This document shows, in pieces, positions 39,539 through 49,800 of a DNA stretch of 64,000 nucleotides; the first letter of the stretch is position 1; each line of letters starts with the position of its first letter. Origin of the DNA: Bradyrhizobium lupini (GTDB lineage Bacteria > Pseudomonadota > Alphaproteobacteria > Rhizobiales > Xanthobacteraceae); the NCBI RefSeq assembly GCF_040939785.1, contig NZ_CP162553.1, forward strand, positions 4,154,001 to 4,218,000, read 5' to 3'. The translations under genes were made by a program, and so were the position numbers. Under the pieces are notes generated by a model. That model was not told where the DNA came from. It did not search any database and saw nothing but the letters and a program-made list of their open reading frames with translations.

Positions 39539-40903
39539 ATGCAGGCCATGACGATCGAAGAACCGGCGCGCCAGGTGCCGCTTTACGGCGAATATGAAGT
39601 CGTCGTCCTCGGCGGCGGTCCGGCCGGCATCGTGGCGGCGGCCTCAAGCGCACGCGCGGGACGGAAGACGCTGCTGATCGAGCGGTACGGCTTCCTTGGC
39701 GGCATGGGCACCGCCGCAGGCGTCACCAATTTCTGCGGCCTGCACGGCAATGTCCACGGCGAGGCCCACCGGCTGGTGCAGGGCATGGCGTCGGAGTTGC
39801 TGGCGCGGATCGATCGCTTGAACGGCCTCAACGCGCCGCATCTGATTCTCGGCAAGGTCTTCGCCCAGGCCTACGACACCGCCGCCTACAAGATCGCGGC
39901 CGACCAACTGCTCGCCAGTCACAAGGTGCACATCCTTTTCCACGCGCTTGGTGCCGGTGTGGTGATGGGCGCTAACAGCCGCATCGATGCGCTGATGGTC
40001 GAGACCAAGGCCGGCCGGCAGGCGGTGCGATCGGAGATCTTCATCGATTGCTCCGGCGACGGCGATCTCGCGGTTTGGGCCGGCGCGCCGTTCGAATTCG
40101 GCGACGAGCACGGTCATCCGATGTATCCCTCGATGATGCTCCGTCTCAACAACATCGACCCGGAGAGGGCAGGCGAAGCCTGGCGGACCATTCCGCAATT
40201 GATGGAGCAGGCCACCGCCGCCGGCACCCACACATTCCCGCGCAAGAGCGCGATCGTGCGGCCGCAGAAGTCCGGCATCGAATGGCGGGTGAATTTTACG
40301 CAAGTGGCGCGCGAGGACGGCCATGCCATCAACGGCATCGAGCCTGATGATCTCACCCGCGGCGAGATCGAGGGCCGCAAGCAGGCGCTGGCTGCGTTCG
40401 AATTCCTGCGCACCGTGCCGGGCTTTGAAAAATCCTACATCGTCGACCTGCCGCCGCAGCTCGGCATCCGCGAAACCCGCCGCATCACGGGCGGCTATCA
40501 GCTCAGCGGCGAGGACGTGCTCGGCTGCGCTTCGTTCGAGGATTCCATCGGGGTCAATGGCTGGCCGATCGAGGCCCATGTCCCCGGCGACGTCGTCTTC
40601 ACCTTCCCGCCGATCCCGGAATCGCGCGGCTATAACGAGCTGCCTTACCGGATGCTGGTGCCCGAAGGCGTCGATAATCTGCTGGTCGCCGGCCGCTGCG
40701 CCTCGATGACCCATGAGGGCCAATCGGCGGCCCGGGTCTCCGGTGCCTGTTTCGTGATGGGGGAGGCGGCCGGTTCCGCGGCAGCGCTGGCGCTCTCCGG
40801 AAACCGGATCCCGCGTGACATCCCCGTTGAAAAGCTGCAGGAAACGTTGAAACAACAGGGCGCCTTTATCGGACGGGACCAGCCCGTGCCTGAAGGCCTG
40901 TAA
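39539..40903 (+). CDS. FAD-dependent oxidoreductase (FAD_oxidored family)
   Basis: A 454-residue flavoprotein. The dinucleotide-binding motif is VVLGGGPAGIVAAASSARAG (about residues 21-40), followed by GGMGTAAGVTNFCGLHGN, the GDGDLAVWAGAPFE segment, and the closing FAD motif LVAGRCASMTHEGQSAARV. The family catalyses oxidation of unidentified small molecules. A start at ATG 39539 or 39548 is possible. It lies directly before an ABC importer, and a LysR gene is divergent. It probably processes the imported compound. No homologue of known substrate was recognised. Confidence 0.85.
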   Translation: MQAMTIEEPARQVPLYGEYEVVVLGGGPAGIVAAASSARAGRKTLLIERYGFLGGMGTAAGVTNFCGLHGNVHGEAHRLVQGMASELLARIDRLNGLNAPHLILGKVFAQAYDTAAYKIAADQLLASHKVHILFHALGAGVVMGANSRIDALMVETKAGRQAVRSEIFIDCSGDGDLAVWAGAPFEFGDEHGHPMYPSMMLRLNNIDPERAGEAWRTIPQLMEQATAAGTHTFPRKSAIVRPQKSGIEWRVNFTQVAREDGHAINGIEPDDLTRGEIEGRKQALAAFEFLRTVPGFEKSYIVDLPPQLGIRETRRITGGYQLSGEDVLGCASFEDSIGVNGWPIEAHVPGDVVFTFPPIPESRGYNELPYRMLVPEGVDNLLVAGRCASMTHEGQSAARVSGACFVMGEAAGSAAALALSGNRIPRDIPVEKLQETLKQQGAFIGRDQPVPEGL

Positions 40904-40937: not shown

Positions 40938-41942
40938 ATGATCGGGATTGTGCGGCTCGCGCTAGCTGGCCTGATGGCGATCACAGCAATGGGCACGGCC
41001 CGAGCCGAGGACGCGCTGAAGGCCAGGATCGGCGTGCTCAGGCTATCCTCCTCCGCGCCGGTGTTCATCGCGCAGGACAAGGGCTATTTCCGCGAGGCCG
41101 GCCTCGAGGTCGAGCTGAAATTCTTCGACGCGGCGCAGCCGATCGCGGTGGCGACGACCTCGGGCGACATCGATTTCGGCGTCACCGCCTTCACCGCAGG
41201 TCTTTACAATCTCGCCGGCAAGGGCGTGCTCAAGGTGATCGGCGGCATGAGCCGCGAGAAGGCTGGTTATCCCCTGATCGGCTATTTCGCCAGCAACAAC
41301 GCCTATGCGAGCGGTCTGAAGACGCCGAAGGACCTCGCGGGCAAGCGCGTGGCGATGACGCAGGTTGGCTCCTCCTTTCACTATTCGCTCGGCCTGCTTG
41401 CCGACAAATACGGTTTCAAGCTCGCCGACGTGAAGATTGTGCCGCTGCAATCGCTGTCGAATGCGGCGGCCGCGCTGAAGGGCGAGACCGTGGATGCAGC
41501 GCTGCTGCCGATCTCCACCGCGCGAAAGCTGATGGACGACGGTGGTGCGAAGTTTCTCGGCTGGGTCGGCGACGAGACACCCTGGCAATTGGGCGCGGTG
41601 TTCGCCTCGCCGAAGACGCTGACCAACAAGGTGCTGGTGACGAAGCTGCTCGGCGCCTTGGCAAAGGCCGACCGCGAATATCACGACGTCATCCTCGCCG
41701 CGATGAAGGACGGTGTCGCGCCGATCAATGACAAGACAAAGCCGCTGCTGGAGATCATCGCCAAATATACGAACCTCCCGGTCGAGCAGGTGGTCGGCAA
41801 CTGCGCCTATATCGATCCCGACGGCAAGCTGGATGTGAAGAACGTCGACAACCAGATCAAATGGCTCCAGGAGCAGGGTTTTGCCGACAAGGGCTTCGAC
41901 GCGAATGCGATCATCGCCAAGGAATTCGTGAAGGCGGATTGA
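40938..41942 (+). CDS. NitT/TauT-family ABC transporter substrate-binding protein
   Basis: A 334-residue periplasmic receptor. Signal peptide MIGIVRLALAGLMAITAMGT is cleaved near ARAED. Family signatures are RIGVLRLSSSAPVFIAQDKG and GYFREAGLEVELKFFDAAQP, typical of SsuA/TauA/NMT1-like proteins. It is the first gene of a complete receptor-ATPase-permease importer. These systems carry sulfonates, taurine, nitrate, pyrimidine precursors or aromatic acids. The ligand is unknown. Confidence 0.9.
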   Translation: MIGIVRLALAGLMAITAMGTARAEDALKARIGVLRLSSSAPVFIAQDKGYFREAGLEVELKFFDAAQPIAVATTSGDIDFGVTAFTAGLYNLAGKGVLKVIGGMSREKAGYPLIGYFASNNAYASGLKTPKDLAGKRVAMTQVGSSFHYSLGLLADKYGFKLADVKIVPLQSLSNAAAALKGETVDAALLPISTARKLMDDGGAKFLGWVGDETPWQLGAVFASPKTLTNKVLVTKLLGALAKADREYHDVILAAMKDGVAPINDKTKPLLEIIAKYTNLPVEQVVGNCAYIDPDGKLDVKNVDNQIKWLQEQGFADKGFDANAIIAKEFVKAD

Positions 41943-41958
41943 GAGTAGAACGCAGTCC

Positions 41959-42732
41959 ATGGACCTGATCGCCAACCACATCACCCATCGCTTCGGCGAT
42001 CTCGCCGTGCTCGACAACGTCTCGTTCACCGTCAGCGCGGGCGAGGTGGTGGCGATCGTGGGGCCGTCGGGCTGCGGCAAGAGCACGTTGCTGTCGATCC
42101 TCGGCGGGCTGTTGCTGCCGACCTCCGGCGCGCCCGAGCTGCGTGGATCGCCGCCGGCGGACAGCCTCAATCCGCTCACCTTCGTGTTCCAGGACTTTGC
42201 GCTGCTGCCCTGGGCGAATGTGGAGGAGAACGTCGAATTCCCGCTGCTGCACACCCAGCTCTCGGCCGTGCAGCGCCGCGCGCTGGTCGAGGACGCCTTG
42301 CGCCGCACCGGCCTGACCGATTTTCGCAAAACCTATCCAAAGCAGCTTTCCGGCGGCATGCGCCAGCGCGTCGGCATTTCGCGCGCGCTCGCGGTCAGGC
42401 CGGCCATTCTCCTGATGGACGAGCCATTGTCGGCGTTGGATCCGCAGACCCGCGAACTGCTGATGGAGGATTTCGTCCGGCTGCTCGCCGATGGCGGCAT
42501 GGGCGCCGTGTATGTCACGCATAATCTCGAAGAGGCGGCGAGGCTTGCCGACCGCATCGTGGTGCTGTCGCGGCGCCCTGGCCGTATTCGCGAGGTCGTG
42601 AGCGTGCCGATGACGCGCACTGAGCGCGGTGACATTGCAGCCCGTGAAAAGCTGCTCGCGCTTCAGAACCAGATCTGGTCGCTGATCCGCAACGAGGCGA
42701 TCGATGCCGAGCGCGAGGTCCAGCATGCTTGA
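41959..42732 (+). CDS. ABC transporter ATP-binding protein (NitT/TauT type)
   Basis: A 257-residue ATPase. Walker A is GPSGCGKST, the Q-loop lies in VFQDFALLPWANVEENVEF, the signature is LSGGMRQRVGISRALAV, Walker B is ILLMDEPLSALD, and the H-loop His is in VYVTHNLEEAARLADR. All key motifs are intact. It starts 16 bases after the receptor stop and overlaps the permease start by 8 bases, so the importer genes are translationally coupled. Confidence 0.95.
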   Translation: MDLIANHITHRFGDLAVLDNVSFTVSAGEVVAIVGPSGCGKSTLLSILGGLLLPTSGAPELRGSPPADSLNPLTFVFQDFALLPWANVEENVEFPLLHTQLSAVQRRALVEDALRRTGLTDFRKTYPKQLSGGMRQRVGISRALAVRPAILLMDEPLSALDPQTRELLMEDFVRLLADGGMGAVYVTHNLEEAARLADRIVVLSRRPGRIREVVSVPMTRTERGDIAAREKLLALQNQIWSLIRNEAIDAEREVQHA

Positions 42733-43549
42733 TCGCGCTCCGGCGGGAACATCGACGAAGGATGAAGCGGTCCGGCGCGTCCGCTTTCGCGGCGCCGGCT
42801 TCGTGCCGGCGAGCAGCCGTTTCGGCGGCTGGATCGCGCTCGCGCTGGTCATTGCGATCTGGCAGGCCGCCGGCAGCACCGGCCTGGTCAATCCGCTATT
42901 CCTGCCACCGCCATCGGCGATCGCGCGGGCGATCTACCAGCTCGCGATCTCGGGTGCGCTGTGGCAGCACCTTTCCGCGTCGCTCCTGCGCATCGGTGTC
43001 GGCTGGCTGCTCGGCACGGCAGCCGGTGTCGCCGTTGGCTTTGCCATCGGCCTGTCGCGTCTGGCGCGCAGCGTCGGCATCACCTTCATCTCGGCGCTGT
43101 TCCCGATCCCGAAGATCGCGCTGCTGCCGCTGTTGATCCTCTGGCTCGGCATCGGTGAAGAGCCGAAGATCGCGACCATTGCGCTCGGGGTGTTCTTCTC
43201 GACCGCGATCTCGGTCTATAGCGGCGTCGACGCGGTGCCGCGCAACCTCATCCGCATGGCGCAGAGCTTCAACGTGCCGTTCGCCACCATCGTGCGCAAG
43301 GTGGTCTGGCCGGGCGCGCTGCCCGCGATCCTCGCCGGCTTCCGTATCACCTCGTCGGTGGCGCTGCTGCTCGTCGTCAGCGCCGAGATGATCGGCGCGC
43401 AGTACGGCATCGGCGCGTTCGTGCTGCAGGCTGGCAATTTGATGCAGACGGATCAGCTGCTCGCGGGCGTGGTGATTTTGTCGGTGTTTGGGTTGATGGT
43501 GGGGAGGGTGATCAACTGGCTGGAGACGCGGCTGTTGCACTGGCGGTGA
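42725..43549 (+). CDS. ABC transporter permease (NitT/TauT type)
   Basis: A 274-residue inner-membrane permease with six membrane segments and the cytoplasmic EAA-loop (SFNVPFATIVRKVVWPGALP). SsuC/TauC-like features are FLPPPSAIARAIYQLAISGA, FPIPKIALLPLLILWLGIGE and VIYSGVD-like helix regions. Start ATG 42725 (MLDRAPAGTSTKD) lies inside the ATPase gene end. The gene is followed by a hairpin repeat, which probably ends the operon. Confidence 0.93.
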   Translation: MLDRAPAGTSTKDEAVRRVRFRGAGFVPASSRFGGWIALALVIAIWQAAGSTGLVNPLFLPPPSAIARAIYQLAISGALWQHLSASLLRIGVGWLLGTAAGVAVGFAIGLSRLARSVGITFISALFPIPKIALLPLLILWLGIGEEPKIATIALGVFFSTAISVYSGVDAVPRNLIRMAQSFNVPFATIVRKVVWPGALPAILAGFRITSSVALLLVVSAEMIGAQYGIGAFVLQAGNLMQTDQLLAGVVILSVFGLMVGRVINWLETRLLHWR

Positions 43550-43657: not shown

Positions 43658-44698
43658 TCACGCATTCCCGCGATCCTCCCGGAACAAATCCAGCTTCTGC
43701 TGCACGGGGCGATCCGAGAAGCTGAACAGCACCGCATCCATATCAGCCTCGTGCGTGACCCATTGCCAGCTCGGCACCACGAACAAATCGCGCGGGCCCC
43801 ATTCGAACGTCGCATCCCCGATGCGGGTACGGCCGTGGCCCTCGATCGGACAGAACACCGTCGCGTCCGTCGCGCGATAGCGCGCGGTCTTGAAGCCCTT
43901 CGGCAGCAGCTGGATGAACGTGCCGATGGTCGGCATCGCGAAGTCGCCGGTCTCGGGGTTGCTGAATTTCAGCTTCAGCCCGTGACAGGCATCCCACTCC
44001 TGGCTCGCGCGAGCCTTCTCCAGTGCCTCGCGCGTGTAGGCATAGGGATAGCTGAAGATCGGGGAAGTCTTCGAGCTCCGCTTCACGTCGACCGGCAGCA
44101 GATTGTGGCCGTAGCGTGCAAAGCTGTCGCCGGCCGGCCTTGTAATCTTCTGCTGATCCTCGTTGGAGCCTTCCGCGAAAGAGCAGTCGAAGAACTGCAC
44201 CAGCGGAATGTCGAGACCGTCGAGCCAGAACATCGGCTGGTCGGTCTCGTTGGAATGATCGTGCCAGGTCATCGACGGCGTGATGATGAAGTCGCCGGGC
44301 TCCATCGCGGTGCGCTCGCCGTCCACGGCGGTGTGGGCGCCCTTGCCTTCGAGCACGAAGCGCAGTGCCGATTGGCTGTGCCGGTGCGCGGGCGCGACGT
44401 CGCCGGGCACCACCATCTGCACGCCGGCATAGAGCGACGTGGTGATTTTCGACTGTCCGCGCAGGCCGGGGTTTTCCAGAACCAGCACGCGCCGCTCGGC
44501 CTCTTTCGCCGTGATCAGCTTGCCGGCTTCGGTCATGTAGTCGCGGATGATGTCGAACTTCCACAGATGCGGCCGGCAGGCGCTCTTCGGCTCCGGCGTG
44601 ATCAAATCGCTCATGACCGTCCAGAGCGCGGTGAGATTCTCGCCGTCGATCTTCTTGTAGAACGCCTCGCGTTCCGGCGTCTTGGTCACGGCTTCCAT
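43658..44698 (-). CDS. Gentisate 1,2-dioxygenase
   Basis: A 346-residue bicupin that opens the gentisate ring to maleylpyruvate with Fe(II). Metal-ligand His in the first cupin are at 105, 107 and 146 or 148 (PAHRHSQSALRFVLEGKG and SMTWHDHSN). RPHLWKFDIIRDY and FSYPYAYTREALEKA are typical of the family. The start has CGGGAG about 8 bases upstream. It is divergent from the isomerase that uses its product. Alternative bicupin substrates such as 1-hydroxy-2-naphthoate or salicylate cannot be excluded, but the isomerase neighbour favours gentisate. Confidence 0.9.
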   Translation of the reverse strand: MEAVTKTPEREAFYKKIDGENLTALWTVMSDLITPEPKSACRPHLWKFDIIRDYMTEAGKLITAKEAERRVLVLENPGLRGQSKITTSLYAGVQMVVPGDVAPAHRHSQSALRFVLEGKGAHTAVDGERTAMEPGDFIITPSMTWHDHSNETDQPMFWLDGLDIPLVQFFDCSFAEGSNEDQQKITRPAGDSFARYGHNLLPVDVKRSSKTSPIFSYPYAYTREALEKARASQEWDACHGLKLKFSNPETGDFAMPTIGTFIQLLPKGFKTARYRATDATVFCPIEGHGRTRIGDATFEWGPRDLFVVPSWQWVTHEADMDAVLFSFSDRPVQQKLDLFREDRGNA

Positions 44699-44722
44699 GG
44701 TGCGGCTCCCGTCGCTTTGTTG

Positions 44723-44756
44723 ATTGACAGTATACTTACGATCTGGGTAGCGTCAA
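44723..44756 (-). promoter_or_regulatory. Gentisate dioxygenase promoter with MarR-type operator
   Basis: On the minus strand TTGACG (44756-44751) and TATACT (44734-44729) are 16 bases apart, a good promoter. The -10 box lies inside ATTGACAGTATACTTAC (plus strand 44723-44739), which contains the palindrome AGTATACT. The same 17 bases occur before the hydroxylase at 48732. The site also covers a possible divergent promoter for the isomerase (TTGACA 44724-44729). The island's MarR protein is the obvious candidate binder. Confidence 0.75.
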
Positions 44757-44788
44757 CGTGCGAACAAGAACGAAACGGGAGGGTTCCG

Positions 44789-45421
44789 ATGAAGCTGCAC
44801 GGCTATTTCCGCTCCAGCGCCGCCTACCGGGTACGCATCGCGCTGAACCTCAAAGGCCGCGGTGCCGAGCACCTGCCGCATCATCTTCGCAAGGGCGAGC
44901 AATGTGCGCCAGCCTATCTCGCCATCAATCCGCAAGGCCTGGTGCCGGCGCTGGAGAACGATGCGGGCGCAGTGCTGACCCAATCGGTCGCCATCATCGA
45001 ATGGCTCGACGAGACCCATCCCAACCCGCCCCTGTTGCCGAGGGATGCGTTGCAGCGCGCCAAGGTGAGGGCGTTCGCGCTGGCGATCGCCTGCGACACT
45101 CACCCCGTGCAGAACTTGAAGGTGCTGGCGCGGCTGCGCGAGCTCGGCCTTGCCGAGGAGAAGGTTCAGGACTGGGCGGCCTGGGTCAACCGCGAGGGGC
45201 TCGCGGCGTGCGAGACGCTGATCAGAAACGAGCCGGGCCCGTTCTGCTTCGGGGATGTGCCGACGCTCGCCGATCTCTGTCTTGTGCCGCAGCTCGCCAA
45301 TGCGCGCCGCTTCGGCGTCGACGTCTCCGCCTATCCGCGCCTGCTTGAAGCGGAAGCTGCGGCCAAGGCCCTGCCGGCGTTCGTCAACGCCGCGCCGGAG
45401 AAGCAGCCCGATGCCGAGTAA
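44789..45421 (+). CDS. maiA: Maleylpyruvate/maleylacetoacetate isomerase (zeta-class GST)
   Basis: A 210-residue zeta GST. The N-terminal catalytic motif RSSAAYRVRIALNLKG contains the Ser-Ser pair and the RVRIAL signature. QGLVPALENDAGAVLTQSVA and IIEWLDETHPNPPLLP match the glutathione site. CDTHPVQNLKVL is the zeta-class C-domain motif. It isomerises maleylpyruvate to fumarylpyruvate after the gentisate dioxygenase, or maleylacetoacetate in tyrosine breakdown; the neighbour favours the first. RBS GGGAGGG precedes ATG 44789. It overlaps the MarR gene by 11 bases. Confidence 0.92.
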   Translation: MKLHGYFRSSAAYRVRIALNLKGRGAEHLPHHLRKGEQCAPAYLAINPQGLVPALENDAGAVLTQSVAIIEWLDETHPNPPLLPRDALQRAKVRAFALAIACDTHPVQNLKVLARLRELGLAEEKVQDWAAWVNREGLAACETLIRNEPGPFCFGDVPTLADLCLVPQLANARRFGVDVSAYPRLLEAEAAAKALPAFVNAAPEKQPDAE

Positions 45422-45923
45422 GCCTGCCCCTCCAATCACGATAGACGCGGTCTATGCGGCGCCGGGCTATCTGTTCCGGCGCATGCAGCAGATCGCGGTC
45501 TCGATCTTCATGGAGGAGTGCAAGGCGTTCGACCTCACGCCGGTGCAATACGCGGCGCTGATCGCGATCCACACCCACCCCGGCATCGACGCGACGCGGC
45601 TGTCCGCGGTGATCGCCTTCGATCGCTCCACGCTCGGCAGCGTGATCGAGCGGCTTCAGGCCAAGGATTTCGTCGAGCGCAGGCCGGCGCCGGAAGACAA
45701 GCGGATCAAGCTGCTCTATTTGACCAAATCAGGCGCGGCGATCCTGCGCGACATCATTCCCGCCGTCGAACGCGCCCAGGCGCGGATGCTCGAGCCGCTC
45801 AAGCCAGCGGACCGTAAGGCGCTTATGGGGCTCCTGGCGCAGCTCGTCGATCTCAACAACGAGGCGTCGCGGGTGCCGCTCCGGGCGGAGGACGCGATGG
45901 AGCATCTGGGGAAGGCACCTTAA
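45411..45923 (+). CDS. MarR family transcriptional regulator of the aromatic island
   Basis: A 170-residue winged-helix regulator. The HTH is LTPVQYAALIAIHTHPGIDA and TRLSAVIAFDRSTLGSVIER, and the wing is KDFVERRPAPEDKRIKLLYL. Members usually repress and are released by aromatic acids or their CoA esters (BadR, HbaR-like contexts, HcaR/FerR). Its start overlaps maiA by 11 bases, so it is coupled to the operon. Its likely targets are the two identical operators at 44723 and 48732. The effector could be the aromatic acyl-CoA made by the neighbouring ligase. Confidence 0.88.
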   Translation: MPSKPAPPITIDAVYAAPGYLFRRMQQIAVSIFMEECKAFDLTPVQYAALIAIHTHPGIDATRLSAVIAFDRSTLGSVIERLQAKDFVERRPAPEDKRIKLLYLTKSGAAILRDIIPAVERAQARMLEPLKPADRKALMGLLAQLVDLNNEASRVPLRAEDAMEHLGKAP

Positions 45924-45933
45924 TCCTGGTTGT

Positions 45934-45957
45934 CATCGCCCGCCTTCGCGGGCGATG
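45934..45957. terminator. Bidirectional hairpin between marR and the CoA ligase
   Basis: Perfect 10-base stem CATCGCCCGC (45934-45943) and GCGGGCGATG (45948-45957) with a CTTC loop, between convergent genes. Confidence 0.75.
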
Positions 45958-45968
45958 GCAGCGGTGGC

Positions 45969-47582
45969 TCACATCCTCAGCAACGCCTGCCGGTCGATCT
46001 TCCCCGTGCCGGTCTTCGGCAGCTCGTCGATGAAGATCACCTCGCGCGGATATTTGTAAGGAAGCAGTTTGCCCTTCACGTAATCCTGCAGCCGCCGGGT
46101 CGTTTCGCTTTGATCCGCCGCGCGGGTGTTCATCACCACCACTGCCTTAAGCGTCATGCGCCGGTCCGGCAGCTCGGCGGCGAACACCGCGCATTCGCGG
46201 ATGTCCGGGTGGTCGGCGAGGCAAAGCTCAACCTCGAGCGGGTAGACCCATTGGCCGGAGATCTTGATGAGATCGTCGGCGCGGCCGCGGAAGAAGTGAA
46301 AGCCATCGCCATCGCGGACGAAGCGGTCGCCGGTGTAGATCCAGCCGCCTTCGCGGATGGTCTCGGCGGATTTGTCCGGCCGGTTCCAGTACAGCGGCGT
46401 GTTGGAATCGCCGCGCACCCACAAGATGCCTTCCTCGTCGTCGGCGACATCGCGGCCGTCCTTGTCGCGCAGCGCGACCTCGTAGCCGGGCACGCGCAGG
46501 CCGGCGGCGCCGAGCTTCTTCCGCTCGGGGCGGTTGGAGAGATAGATGTGCAGCACCTCGGTCGAGCCGAGGCCTTCCACGATCTCGAGACCGGTGAGCG
46601 TCTTCCAGCCGTTGAAGACGTCGGCCGAGAGCACCTCGGCGGCCGAGAGCGCCATGCGCAGTGAGGAGAAGTCGGTCTTGTTCGCACCCTCGGCCTTGGT
46701 CAGCGATGTATAAAGCGTCGGCAGGCCGAAGAAGACCGTCGGCCTGTACTGCTCGATCGCCGAAAAGATTGCCACGGGCTTCGGCTGGCCGGGCAACAGC
46801 AGTGTCGTCGCGCCCGCCGAGAACGGGAAGGTGATCGCGTTGCCGAAGCCATAGGCGAAGAAGATTTTTGGCACCGAGAAGCAGATGTCATCCGGCGTCA
46901 GCTTCAAGACGTTCTGCGCAAAGGCGACTTCGCTATAGGCCATGTCGTGCTGGAGATGCACGATGCCCTTGGGGCGGCCGGTCGATCCGGACGAATACAT
47001 CCAGAACGCCATCTCGTTGCGATGCGTGTCGGCTTCCGCGAGCTCAGTCGGAAACTGGGGGAGCCAGCCGGCGGCGGAAACGGCGTTCGGCGCGGCGTGA
47101 TCGCTCGCCGGGCCATTGACGACGACCAGGGTATGCAGGGCCGTGTCCTTGCAGGCCTCGGCGTTGAAACGTGCACAGAACTCGGCGTCCGCCACCGCAA
47201 CAGTCGCGCCGGAATCGGCGAGATAGAATTGCAGCAGATCCGGCGGTGTCAGCGTGTTGATCAGCAATGGCACGAAGCCGGCGCGCACCGCGCCGAAGAA
47301 CGCGGCCGGGTAGGCCGGAGTGTCATCGAGGAACAACAGCACGCGATCGCCGCGCTTGAGGCCAAGCGAGGCAAAGCCGTTGCCCCAGCGCCCGGCTTCC
47401 GCGCAGAGCTCCGCGTAGGTGCGCGTGCTCGCGGGGCCGATGAGCGCGAGCTTGTCACCGTGGCCTTTGCCGACATTGTCGAACAGCACGCGGCTGGCAT
47501 TGTAGACCTGCGGAACGGAAAAGCCGATCTCGCGCGCGCCCGCGCAGTCGGCGGGCACCTGGTCGTGAATCTGCCGGCTCAT
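45969..47582 (-). CDS. Benzoate-CoA ligase family protein
   Basis: A 537-residue AMP-forming aryl-CoA ligase. It has the phosphate loop YSSGSTGRPKGIVH, FFGLPTLYTSL, the A5 region GLGSTEVLHIYLSN, LYWNRPDKSAETIREGGWIY with GDRFVRDGDGF, and C-terminal lysine motif PKTGTGKIDRQALL. The overall pattern is that of benzoate/2-aminobenzoate/hydroxybenzoate-CoA ligases (BadA-like). Start ATG 47582 overlaps the hydroxylase stop by 4 bases, so the two enzymes form an operon: CoA activation then ring hydroxylation. Exact aryl acid (salicylate, 3-hydroxybenzoate, anthranilate) is not determined. Confidence 0.88.
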   Translation of the reverse strand: MSRQIHDQVPADCAGAREIGFSVPQVYNASRVLFDNVGKGHGDKLALIGPASTRTYAELCAEAGRWGNGFASLGLKRGDRVLLFLDDTPAYPAAFFGAVRAGFVPLLINTLTPPDLLQFYLADSGATVAVADAEFCARFNAEACKDTALHTLVVVNGPASDHAAPNAVSAAGWLPQFPTELAEADTHRNEMAFWMYSSGSTGRPKGIVHLQHDMAYSEVAFAQNVLKLTPDDICFSVPKIFFAYGFGNAITFPFSAGATTLLLPGQPKPVAIFSAIEQYRPTVFFGLPTLYTSLTKAEGANKTDFSSLRMALSAAEVLSADVFNGWKTLTGLEIVEGLGSTEVLHIYLSNRPERKKLGAAGLRVPGYEVALRDKDGRDVADDEEGILWVRGDSNTPLYWNRPDKSAETIREGGWIYTGDRFVRDGDGFHFFRGRADDLIKISGQWVYPLEVELCLADHPDIRECAVFAAELPDRRMTLKAVVVMNTRAADQSETTRRLQDYVKGKLLPYKYPREVIFIDELPKTGTGKIDRQALLRM

Positions 47583-48717
47583 GCCTCGTCCCCACCGTTC
47601 TTGGCGGCTTCGTAGCGCGCCATGAAGCCCGGCGACATCGCGCGCAGGCGGGGTCGTCGATGCGGCCGGAGCGGGTGATGTAGCTATAGGCAAAGTCCAT
47701 CAGGCCCTGCTGCATGTGCTGAGCAAAGTGCTCGTACCAGAAAGCGCTGGTCCGCGCGGCATTGACGAGCTTCTGCACCACCGGCTTTCGCGCGGCCTGG
47801 TAGCGATGCAGGGCGGTCGAGAGATGGGCGTCCGATTCCAGCGCCTTGACCAGTGCAATGGCGTCCTCGATCGCGAGCCGCGTGCCGGAGCCGATCGAAA
47901 AATGCGCCGAGTGCAGGGCGTCACCGAGCAGCACCATGTTCTTGAACGACCAGTGCTCGTTCCAGACCCAGGGGAAGTTGCGCCAGACCGATTTGTTGGA
48001 AACCAGCGAGCGGCCGCCGAGCGTGTCGGCGAACACCTCCTCGCAGACACCTTTGGACTGCTCCACGTCCTTGTAGGCGAAACCGTAGGCCTGCCACGTC
48101 GCATGGTCGCATTCGACCAGGAAGGTGCTCATGGTCGGCGAGTAGCGGTAGTGATGGGCGTTGAAGGCACCGCGGTCGGTCTTGACGAAGGTCTGCGACA
48201 GCGTCTCGAAGCGCTTCGAGGTGCCGTACCAGACGAACTTGTTCGAGGAGTAGGACAGCGAGGTGCCGAAATCGCCCTCGAAGGCGCGGCGTACCAGCGA
48301 GTTCAGCCCGTCGGCAGCGACGATCAGATCGTGCCCGTTGAGCTGATCGATCGCATGAATCGGCGTGTCGAAGCGCGGGGTGACGCCGGCATTGATCGCG
48401 CGCTGCTGCAGGAATCGCAAGAGCTCGAGCCGGCCGATCGAGGAGAAGCCGACGCCGTCGATGGCCACGCTGTCGCCGCTCAGGTTCAGCGTGATGTTCT
48501 CCCAGCTCTCCATGTGCGGCGAGATCGCGTCGACCGTCTCGGGGTCGTCGGCGCGCAGGAATTCCAGGGCCTGATCAGAAAACACCACGCCAAAGCCCCA
48601 GGTCGCGTCGGCCGGGTTCTGTTCGAACAGGTCGACTTGATCCTCGGGGTGACGCTTCTTCCAGAGATAGGCGAAGTAGAGCCCACCGGGCCCCCCGCCA
48701 ATCACGGCGATCCGCAA
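47579..48717 (-). pseudogene. FAD-dependent aryl-CoA (salicylyl-CoA 5-) hydroxylase-like protein, frameshifted at 3' end
   Basis: A class A flavin monooxygenase. It has GGGPGGLYFAYLWKKRHPED for FAD, WGFGVVFSDQALEFLRADDP, HDLIVAADGLNSLVRRAF and the second FAD motif GDALHSAHFSIGSGTRL. The N-terminus resembles the monooxygenase half of salicylyl-CoA 5-hydroxylase and 2-aminobenzoyl-CoA monooxygenase, but the C-terminal reductase half is absent. The start is TTG 48717 with GGGAGG 6 bases upstream. The frame breaks near 47651-47654, in a CCCC run; one more C restores LRAMSPGFMARYEAAKNGG and a TGA overlapping the ligase ATG. About 379 residues, probably intact in vivo. Confidence 0.82.
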
Positions 48718-48731
48718 CGTCTGCCTCCCTA

Positions 48732-48766
48732 ATTGACAGTATACTTACTATCTAGGGGTAGACTAA
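48732..48766 (-). promoter_or_regulatory. Hydroxylase-ligase operon promoter with MarR-type operator
   Basis: ATTGACAGTATACTTAC (plus strand 48732-48748) is identical to the site at 44723 and is followed by ATCT after one variable base in both places. On the minus strand TATACT (48743-48738) serves as -10 and TTAGTC, 17 bases away, as a weak -35. It lies 15 bases from the hydroxylase start, giving a short leader. Confidence 0.7.
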
Positions 48767-48984: not shown

Positions 48985-49800
48985 CTAGCGTGCCGCGAAC
49001 GGCGCCAGCACGTCCTTGCAGGCAGGTGACAGCGACGCGGCGTTGCTGGCGATGCACTGCACGATGCGGCCGCCGCCAGGCGCTACGCCGGCGCACAGCG
49101 TGCGGATGTCGGCACCGCAGGCGGAGCGGACGATGAACAGCTCTTCGCGCGGCCGCAGCGGGCGCAACGCGATCACGGCGGGCGCGGCTGCCGGTGCTGC
49201 CGCCGCCGCGGGAGCCGCGCCCGGAGGTGCCGCCGTTGCTGCCGTGCCACCGCCGCCGGCCGCGGCGCTCACGGCCTTCTCGCAGGCCGGCGAAACCTTT
49301 GCCTTGTTCTTCTCGAGGCATTCGAGCGCAGGCGCGCCGCCTGGCGGCACGCTGGCGCACACCTTGGGATAATCGGCGCGGCACGCGCTCTTGACGGCAG
49401 CGACCTGCGCGCTGCTCGGCTGTTTGGCTGCCGCGTCCTTCGGCGCTGCTCCAGATGCCGGCTTTGCGGCGGGGGCGGTTTCAGCCTTCGGCGCGGCAGG
49501 CGCGGCCTCCGCCTTGGGTGGAGCCTCGGTCTTCGGCGCCGCAGCAGGCTCGACGGCGCGGACCGCGGTTTGGCATCCCGAGGACAGGCTGGACATGTTC
49601 TTCTGCAGGCATTGATAGGCTTCCACGCCGCCGGGCGTGACGCTCGCGCAGTGCGCCATGAAATCCGAGCGGCATGCGGAGCGGATCGCGCTCTTTTGCG
49701 CCTCGGTCGGCGCTTGTGCGAATGCGCCTGCTGCAGTTGCGAAGAGAGCCGCCGCCAGCAACGCCCCGCGTGCCGACGCATGTTTCAACGTGTTGAACAT
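48985..49800 (-). CDS. Exported protein with three cysteine-rich repeats
   Basis: A 271-residue secreted protein. The signal peptide is ALLAAALFATAAGAFAQA. Three modules (about residues 37-83, 135-180 and 223-267) share the exact spacing C-x7-C-x12-C-x11-C: CRSDFMAHC, CRADYPKVC and CGADIRTLC open each one. They resemble the Cys-rich repeat known from eukaryotic Golgi protein GLG1. Ala/Pro/Lys-rich linkers join them. Each module probably holds two disulfides. Function unknown; envelope or periplasmic binding protein is a guess. Confidence 0.85.
   Translation of the reverse strand: MFNTLKHASARGALLAAALFATAAGAFAQAPTEAQKSAIRSACRSDFMAHCASVTPGGVEAYQCLQKNMSSLSSGCQTAVRAVEPAAAPKTEAPPKAEAAPAAPKAETAPAAKPASGAAPKDAAAKQPSSAQVAAVKSACRADYPKVCASVPPGGAPALECLEKNKAKVSPACEKAVSAAAGGGGTAATAAPPGAAPAAAAAPAAAPAVIALRPLRPREELFIVRSACGADIRTLCAGVAPGGGRIVQCIASNAASLSPACKDVLAPFAAR

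Follow-up and report, generated by a model that had tools for sequence, protein, structure and literature searches.

A conserved gentisate island of Bradyrhizobium lupini and its probable coenzyme A-dependent route from salicylate

Introduction

A five-gene island in the genome of Bradyrhizobium lupini, which combines an aryl-CoA ligase and a flavin hydroxylase with a gentisate 1,2-dioxygenase, an isomerase and a MarR family regulator, raises the question of which aromatic acid it degrades and whether this acid is hydroxylated free or as its coenzyme A (CoA) thioester. The island lies in a stretch of 64,000 nucleotides, here called the window, which covers positions 4154001-4218000 of the one-contig genome of 7.83 Mb. 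A sequence-only reading of the window had proposed a CoA-thioester path to gentisate, with salicylate, 3-hydroxybenzoate and anthranilate as candidate acids. Using gene families, phylogenetic position, element conservation, synteny and gene fusion, we find that the CoA-thioester route to gentisate is well supported, that kinship makes salicylate the most likely substrate, and that the island probably encodes CoA-dependent salicylate catabolism. The island is real and well conserved, and as a representative of the CehGH-type CoA route it is unremarkable; new here are an operator-like element at both transcription units, natural hydroxylase-ligase fusions, a conditional loss of the ligase and a strain-specific frameshift.

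Results

The five genes lie where the sequence-only reading had placed them and form more than one operon. Leftward, on the minus strand, run the gene of a single-domain flavin adenine dinucleotide (FAD) aryl-CoA hydroxylase of the CehH clade (47579-48717, with a TTG start and a frameshift near 47652) and that of a CehG-like aryl-CoA ligase of the benzoate-CoA ligase family (45969-47582, 537 residues). Facing them on the plus strand are the genes of a MaiA/GST-family maleylacetoacetate/maleylpyruvate isomerase (44789-45421, 210 residues) and of the MarR regulator (45411-45923), and the gentisate 1,2-dioxygenase gene (43658-44698, minus strand, 346 residues) diverges from that of the isomerase. 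The dioxygenase, isomerase and ligase scored above their NCBIfam cut-offs (TIGR02272, 626 bits versus 442; TIGR01262, 263 versus 171; TIGR02262, 488 versus 375) and the regulator above that of the Pfam MarR family. A search of the whole genome with TIGR02272 at E 0.001 returned a single match, the dioxygenase of the island.

The CoA-thioester route proposed earlier is well supported, since the hydroxylase and ligase are akin to proteins named CehH and CehG, the two enzymes are naturally fused in some bacteria, the units of the island share an element, and its gentisate dioxygenase is the only one in the genome. Two plasmid relatives are annotated with cehH (salicylyl-CoA hydroxylase) and cehG (salicylyl-CoA ligase), one of them also with cehI (gentisyl-CoA thioesterase), and identity to these proteins, whose names are those of the database and among which the proteins of Rhizobium sp. 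X9 itself do not figure, was 53-54% for the hydroxylase and 55-58% for the ligase. To a pair from Agrobacterium vitis both enzymes were 65% identical, and the locus of that pair also holds a thioesterase, an IclR regulator, a fumarylacetoacetate-hydrolase-family protein, an isomerase and a cupin.

The best NCBIfam model for the hydroxylase was NF006101 (salicylyl-CoA 5-hydroxylase/oxidoreductase), which was matched at 389 of 1078 bits, below its cut-off, and just over positions 1-364 of 768; the C-terminal Old Yellow Enzyme type half is missing, in agreement with the earlier observation that the reductase half is absent. The single domain had been taken for a compact variant, a description that our comparison does not bear out, since enzymes of this length are the rule in a clade of their own. 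Among 398 genomes drawn from the phylum, 77 of which had a hydroxylase match at 1e-40, matches of at least 51% identity sat in frames of 324-429 residues with two exceptions (a fusion in a frame of 1014 residues, in genome G347, and a piece of 100 residues where a contig ends), and matches of at most 47% sat in frames of at least 763 residues; within the genus, three further single-domain matches reached down to 49-52%. A tree of 50 hand-picked rows, which contains some long branches and was rooted at its midpoint for drawing only, placed 34 rows, among them the hydroxylase of the window and both cehH-named proteins, in one clade (support 100/99), and left outside it 13 fused-type rows and 3 actinobacterial rows of 486-517 residues. 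Where the sequence-only reading had looked to phylogeny to place the hydroxylase, the tree separates it from the fused NF006101-type enzymes.

Gene neighbourhoods tied the absent half to another route. Across 40 hand-chosen loci with stretches of 9.5-19 kb, a related ligase (at least 55% identity) was present at 17 of the 22 single-domain loci and at 0 of the 18 fused-type loci; a gentisate dioxygenase at 12/22, with a thirteenth annotated at the edge of a Variovorax stretch, versus 1/18; and an enoyl-CoA hydratase at 0/22 versus 15/18 (one at just 32%). These loci suggest an annotation rule by which a hydroxylase without the second half goes with a gentisate dioxygenase and one with it goes with an enoyl-CoA hydratase. 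The Old Yellow Enzyme type half of the 2-aminobenzoyl-CoA enzyme reduces the ring, and its absence fits an aromatic product that is passed to a gentisate dioxygenase. The sole fused-type locus with a gentisate dioxygenase match (39%), L223, also has a hydrolase-family match and is without the usual enoyl-CoA hydratase.

These data bear on the proposal of anthranilate as the acid, with the hydroxylase acting as a 2-aminobenzoyl-CoA monooxygenase. The enzyme does share distant homology, 38% over 353 residues, with the genome's own fused-type enzyme, but that enzyme, of 783 residues at 6205742, already has an enoyl-CoA hydratase and an anthranilate-type ligase (52% identical to the ligase of plasmid pAL1) within 16 kb. 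The island hydroxylase has no second half, and the dioxygenase next to it scores as a gentisate enzyme and not as a 5-aminosalicylate dioxygenase, for which it reached 262 of 650 bits, below the cut-off. Since gentisate would not arise from anthranilate and a separate fused-type enzyme with an anthranilate-type ligase exists in the genome, we regard this acid as extremely unlikely; among the acids named by the sequence-only reading, salicylate is the most likely and 3-hydroxybenzoate stays a candidate.

The ligase and hydroxylase are linked physically in several bacteria. In 5 of the 34 rows of the single-domain clade (loci L173, L174, L175, L176 and L178) they form one polypeptide of about 910-916 residues. 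Fusions of about 910 residues, with the hydroxylase part first, occur in Rhizobium leguminosarum, Nitratireductor, Sinorhizobium sojae and one further genome (L178), and one of 916 residues occurs in a Bradyrhizobium genome that carries the island (L176). The latter is the single genome from which a Bradyrhizobium fusion is known; its row stands apart from the other fusions in the tree, and the fusion probably arose on its own. There was no fusion among the loci of 80 relatives of the island (the best 80 of 159 confirmed). The annotated fusion proteins of L174 and L175 are both named just 'benzoate-CoA ligase family protein', so the hydroxylase half goes unseen. Among the open-licence PubMed Central (PMC) papers listed under the names salicylyl-CoA ligase and hydroxylase, we found none on such a fusion, which is weak evidence of absence.

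The fate of the ligase in the 80 relatives pointed the same way. It was full in 74, cut by the contig end in L111 and without a usable copy in five, with no match in L060, L074, L098 and L104 and a 25-residue remnant in L064. The remaining island comes directly after the hydroxylase in L074, L098 and L104; in L060 what follows the hydroxylase, as far as the contig reaches, is a transposase-like open reading frame (ORF), identified by eye. A second ligase (60-61%) was present in 4/4 searched genomes without any local ligase (L060, L074, L098 and L104) and in 0/13 control genomes with a full local ligase, where the next best match was at most 43%; the ligase-loss genomes may share ancestry, so that these counts are perhaps not of independent events. 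In three of the ligase-less genomes the second ligase has as neighbours another hydroxylase (67-69%) and the beginning of a thioesterase gene. Genome G063, which has the same contig match as L064, carries an additional hydroxylase (67%), and additional copies at 67-70% were listed in 4/98 genomes of the genus. The local ligase appears to have been lost just where another of its kind remains.

The alternative that the hydroxylase acts on a free acid, the ligase serving another route, draws on the 3-hydroxybenzoate 6- and salicylate 1-hydroxylases of the same superfamily, which use free acids and whose models the island enzyme matches weakly. Against it stand the natural hydroxylase-ligase fusions in two separate parts of the tree, the second ligases of the genomes without a local one, and the overlap of the two genes by four bases in many relatives (by eye), the start of the ligase overlapping the site where the relatives' hydroxylase frame ends. 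We give this alternative very little probability and retain hydroxylation of a CoA thioester.

Two further cluster arrangements came to light in this comparison. On plasmid pSWIT02 of Rhizorhabdus wittichii RW1 (L119) the hydroxylase adjoins a gentisate dioxygenase among transposase/integrase genes, and the ligase is not in the 15 kb stretch. A third cluster type, in two Bradyrhizobium loci (L185, L186) and on a Variovorax plasmid (L170), has a hydroxylase of 49-52%, a thioesterase, a hydrolase, a gentisate dioxygenase and a different ligase; L170 also holds an acyl-CoA dehydrogenase, a crotonase and a 3-hydroxyacyl-CoA dehydrogenase, as if its aryl-CoA came from side-chain beta-oxidation, for example of 2-hydroxycinnamate.

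Both transcription units of the island carry the same operator-like element. The 14-base sequence TAAGTATACTGTCA has two exact copies in the window, where 0.31 sites would be expected at up to three mismatches: one at 48734-48747 (minus strand), 16 bases from the start codon of the hydroxylase, and one at 44725-44738 (minus strand), between the divergent dioxygenase and isomerase-MarR units. In these two copies the palindrome is confined to the central 8 bases and the flanking arms agree at 4/10 places, and in many relatives the second site reads TCAGTATACTGTCA, with a palindromic core of 10 bases. Of the 80 relatives, whose stretches measure 7.5-19 kb and are full length in 64 cases, 73 have exactly two sites at up to two mismatches; one of these precedes the hydroxylase and the other lies mostly about 4 kb on, or 2.4-2.8 kb on in three loci without the ligase or most of it. 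Counting just the 75 relatives with a dioxygenase in their stretch, the element stands at both promoters in 73. The seven relatives with one site comprise five in whose stretch no dioxygenase was found, L098, which is without the hydroxylase site, and L113, with a site that has diverged further. Both sites were kept in altered form by the diverged islands of Bradyrhizobium (L176, L177 and L190), and the IclR-type second clusters L183 and L184 had no element within four mismatches of a 16-base form. Genome-wide, just two sites were found at up to one mismatch, those of the island. The MarR protein is probably the repressor of the island.

No gene for a gentisyl-CoA thioesterase or a fumarylpyruvate hydrolase had been noticed beside the island, and this stands: neither the 64 kb window nor the stretches of the 80 relatives contained a match at E 0.001 to four thioesterase, three hydrolase and one IclR query taken from known clusters. 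Absence of a local thioesterase and hydrolase is typical of the Bradyrhizobium layout. Elsewhere in the genome there were 11 hydrolase-family matches; one of them, 55% identical to the A. vitis protein, is the candidate fumarylpyruvate hydrolase at 6369115-6369786, and its neighbour reads like a major facilitator superfamily transporter. The only thioesterase match in the genome was at 2976287. In the Streptomyces work gentisyl-CoA reportedly breaks down without an enzyme, for which reason a thioesterase may be dispensable here. The pathway could do without a dedicated thioesterase if the ligase and hydroxylase of bradyrhizobia formed a complex that binds and returns CoA and turns salicylate into gentisate, a complex that in some strains would be a single polypeptide, or if the dioxygenase opened gentisyl-CoA itself; we consider either version distinctly unlikely.

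The hydroxylase gene of the sequenced strain is not intact. Relative to two near relatives it has a one-base deletion at about 47652, and its ORF here spans 47455-48717 (420 residues), the scrambled out-of-frame tail entering the ligase gene. The 379 residues given in the sequence-only reading correspond to no open frame in this genome and imply reading across the shift. The frame is intact, at 379-392 residues, in 80/80 relatives, the shift was seen in this genome alone, and the C-terminal tail of the intact enzyme is largely conserved across 13 aligned relatives. A programmed frameshift was rejected in view of the in-frame gene of all 80 relatives, and a frameshift that fuses the hydroxylase to the ligase was rejected, the two frames being different. 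We also rejected a generally error-ridden assembly: against L034, over about 18.8 kb, there were 21 indels whose length is no multiple of three, of which, by position, the one at 47652 alone breaks a coding frame, the others being intergenic, at the stop codon of the permease (43547) or in front of a probable start (51082). The hydroxylase of the strain may be impaired by the frameshift, or the deletion is possibly an isolated sequencing error. An AlphaFold2 model of the intact L034 hydroxylase, made with 14 close sequences, had a mean predicted local distance difference test score (pLDDT) of 49.7 and was discarded.

Intact copies of the hydroxylase are widespread in the genus. Its nearest named relatives are almost all from Bradyrhizobium, and the single-domain hydroxylase was present at 71% identity or more in 95 of 98 Bradyrhizobium genomes, a count that includes this genome and three partial matches. 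The loci of the 80 relatives hold the MarR gene in 76 cases, the dioxygenase in 75, the isomerase in 75 and the proteins of an ATP-binding cassette (ABC) importer in 71-73; some of these gaps are due to short stretches at contig ends. In the window this SsuABC-type importer (binding protein, ATPase and permease; 40938-43549, plus strand) lies beside the island, as in most relatives. It is a possible uptake system, a link made from position, and a search of the window found no copy of the element upstream of its genes. Directly upstream of it, at 39539-40903, is an FAD-dependent oxidoreductase (PF12831, 382 bits; no NCBIfam model above cut-off), and on the other side of the island, at 48985-49800, a protein with three similar cysteine-containing repeats by eye matched no NCBIfam family at 1e-20.

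Discussion

The catalytic steps and the control that we infer for the island would run as follows. The ligase would convert salicylate, ATP and CoA into salicylyl-CoA, to which the single-domain flavin hydroxylase, using FAD, NAD(P)H and O2, would add a 5-hydroxyl group to give gentisyl-CoA. The thioester would break down by itself or be cleaved by a thioesterase encoded at another locus, after which the dioxygenase would open the ring of gentisate, the GST-type isomerase would turn maleylpyruvate into fumarylpyruvate, and a hydrolase encoded elsewhere, for which the gene at 6369115-6369786 is the candidate, would split it. MarR would repress both units through the shared element and be released by the substrate or its CoA ester.

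Several observations weigh against this interpretation. The cehH names are database annotation, salicylate as the substrate is a best guess from kinship, and the cehH-named rows fall in a different subclade from the hydroxylase of the window, which is itself frameshifted in this strain. The window and the 80 stretches have neither the CehI-like thioesterase nor the IclR regulator seen in the clusters of relatives, and the sole thioesterase match of the genome, at 35% identity to its A. vitis counterpart, is weak and lies among ORFs for a likely acyl-CoA synthetase, dehydrogenase and crotonase. A reversed control pattern gave 3 genome sites at up to one mismatch versus 2 for the element; because the genome-wide count is thus not above chance, the argument from the element rests on its exactness, position and conservation. 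Finally, the genome is without an above-cut-off 3-hydroxybenzoate 6-hydroxylase (the best match reached 330 of 459 bits), which leaves room for 3-hydroxybenzoate as the acid.

If 3-hydroxybenzoate were the substrate, 3-hydroxybenzoyl-CoA would be hydroxylated at C6, and the product, gentisyl-CoA, and the ring-cleavage steps would be the same. The HbdA model of a 3-hydroxybenzoate-CoA ligase was second best for the island ligase (366 bits, cut-off 1000), but it scored a cehG-annotated ligase equally (364.5 bits) and so does not discriminate, and the nearest specifically named relatives are salicylyl-CoA enzymes; we judge 3-hydroxybenzoate to be unlikely, though it is the serious rival. Gentisyl-CoA could also arise from 4-hydroxybenzoyl-CoA by hydroxylation at C1 with migration of the thioester group (NIH shift), as is said of the Phg pathway of Brevibacillus, which reportedly has the same kinds of genes, a ligase and a flavin hydroxylase. 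Two above-cut-off 4-hydroxybenzoate 3-monooxygenase genes elsewhere in the genome provide the usual route for that acid, and we hold its use by the island to be very improbable. Salicylate remains the substrate that we favour.

Salicylic acid is a plant defence signal, and many bradyrhizobia live in legume roots. Given the presence of the hydroxylase in nearly all genomes of the genus examined, the breakdown of salicylate by such an island may be a regular feature of bradyrhizobia. The salicylyl-CoA route has been ascribed to other root bacteria too, since, according to a 2026 study (PMC13215587), SdgC genes occur in 59/60 Massilia strains, one of them being salicylate-induced. Among the open-licence PMC papers listed we found none on the island in Bradyrhizobium, which is weak evidence of absence.

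Among known systems, the 2-aminobenzoyl-CoA monooxygenase/reductase type (NF006101) has a homologous hydroxylase half (36-47% identity; that of this genome was compared above), and the island differs from it in having no second half, a different ligase, and a gentisate dioxygenase in place of the enoyl-CoA hydratase. The nearest solved structures by sequence are those of VioD (PDB 3c4a and 8gqr; E about 1e-49), the hydroxylase of the violacein pathway, whose likeness covers residues 1-349 and whose substrate and pathway reportedly differ from those of the island enzyme. SdgABCD of Streptomyces sp. WA46 is said to convert salicylyl-CoA through gentisyl-CoA to gentisate, a route that it shares with the island, and its ligase is reportedly AMP-ligase-like, whereas that of the island belongs to the benzoate-CoA ligase family.

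The nearest known system is CehGHI, the CoA-mediated salicylate catabolism of Rhizobium sp. X9, as it is cited in PMC11335346 (Zhou et al. 2021, Molecular Microbiology 116:783, doi 10.1111/mmi.14771), with which the island was compared through the annotated plasmid relatives. The island differs in having no CehI-type thioesterase, IclR regulator or clustered fumarylpyruvate hydrolase, and in having a MarR regulator, an element of its own and an ABC importer alongside; its dioxygenase, represented by the 99% identical copy of genome G076, shares just 34-36% identity with the dioxygenases of two plasmid clusters from Agrobacterium. What the two systems appear to share is a single-domain CehH-type hydroxylase, a CehG of the benzoate-CoA ligase family and gentisate as the presumed product, and the Agrobacterium plasmid cluster that carries the ceh names has, like the island, a MaiA-type isomerase.

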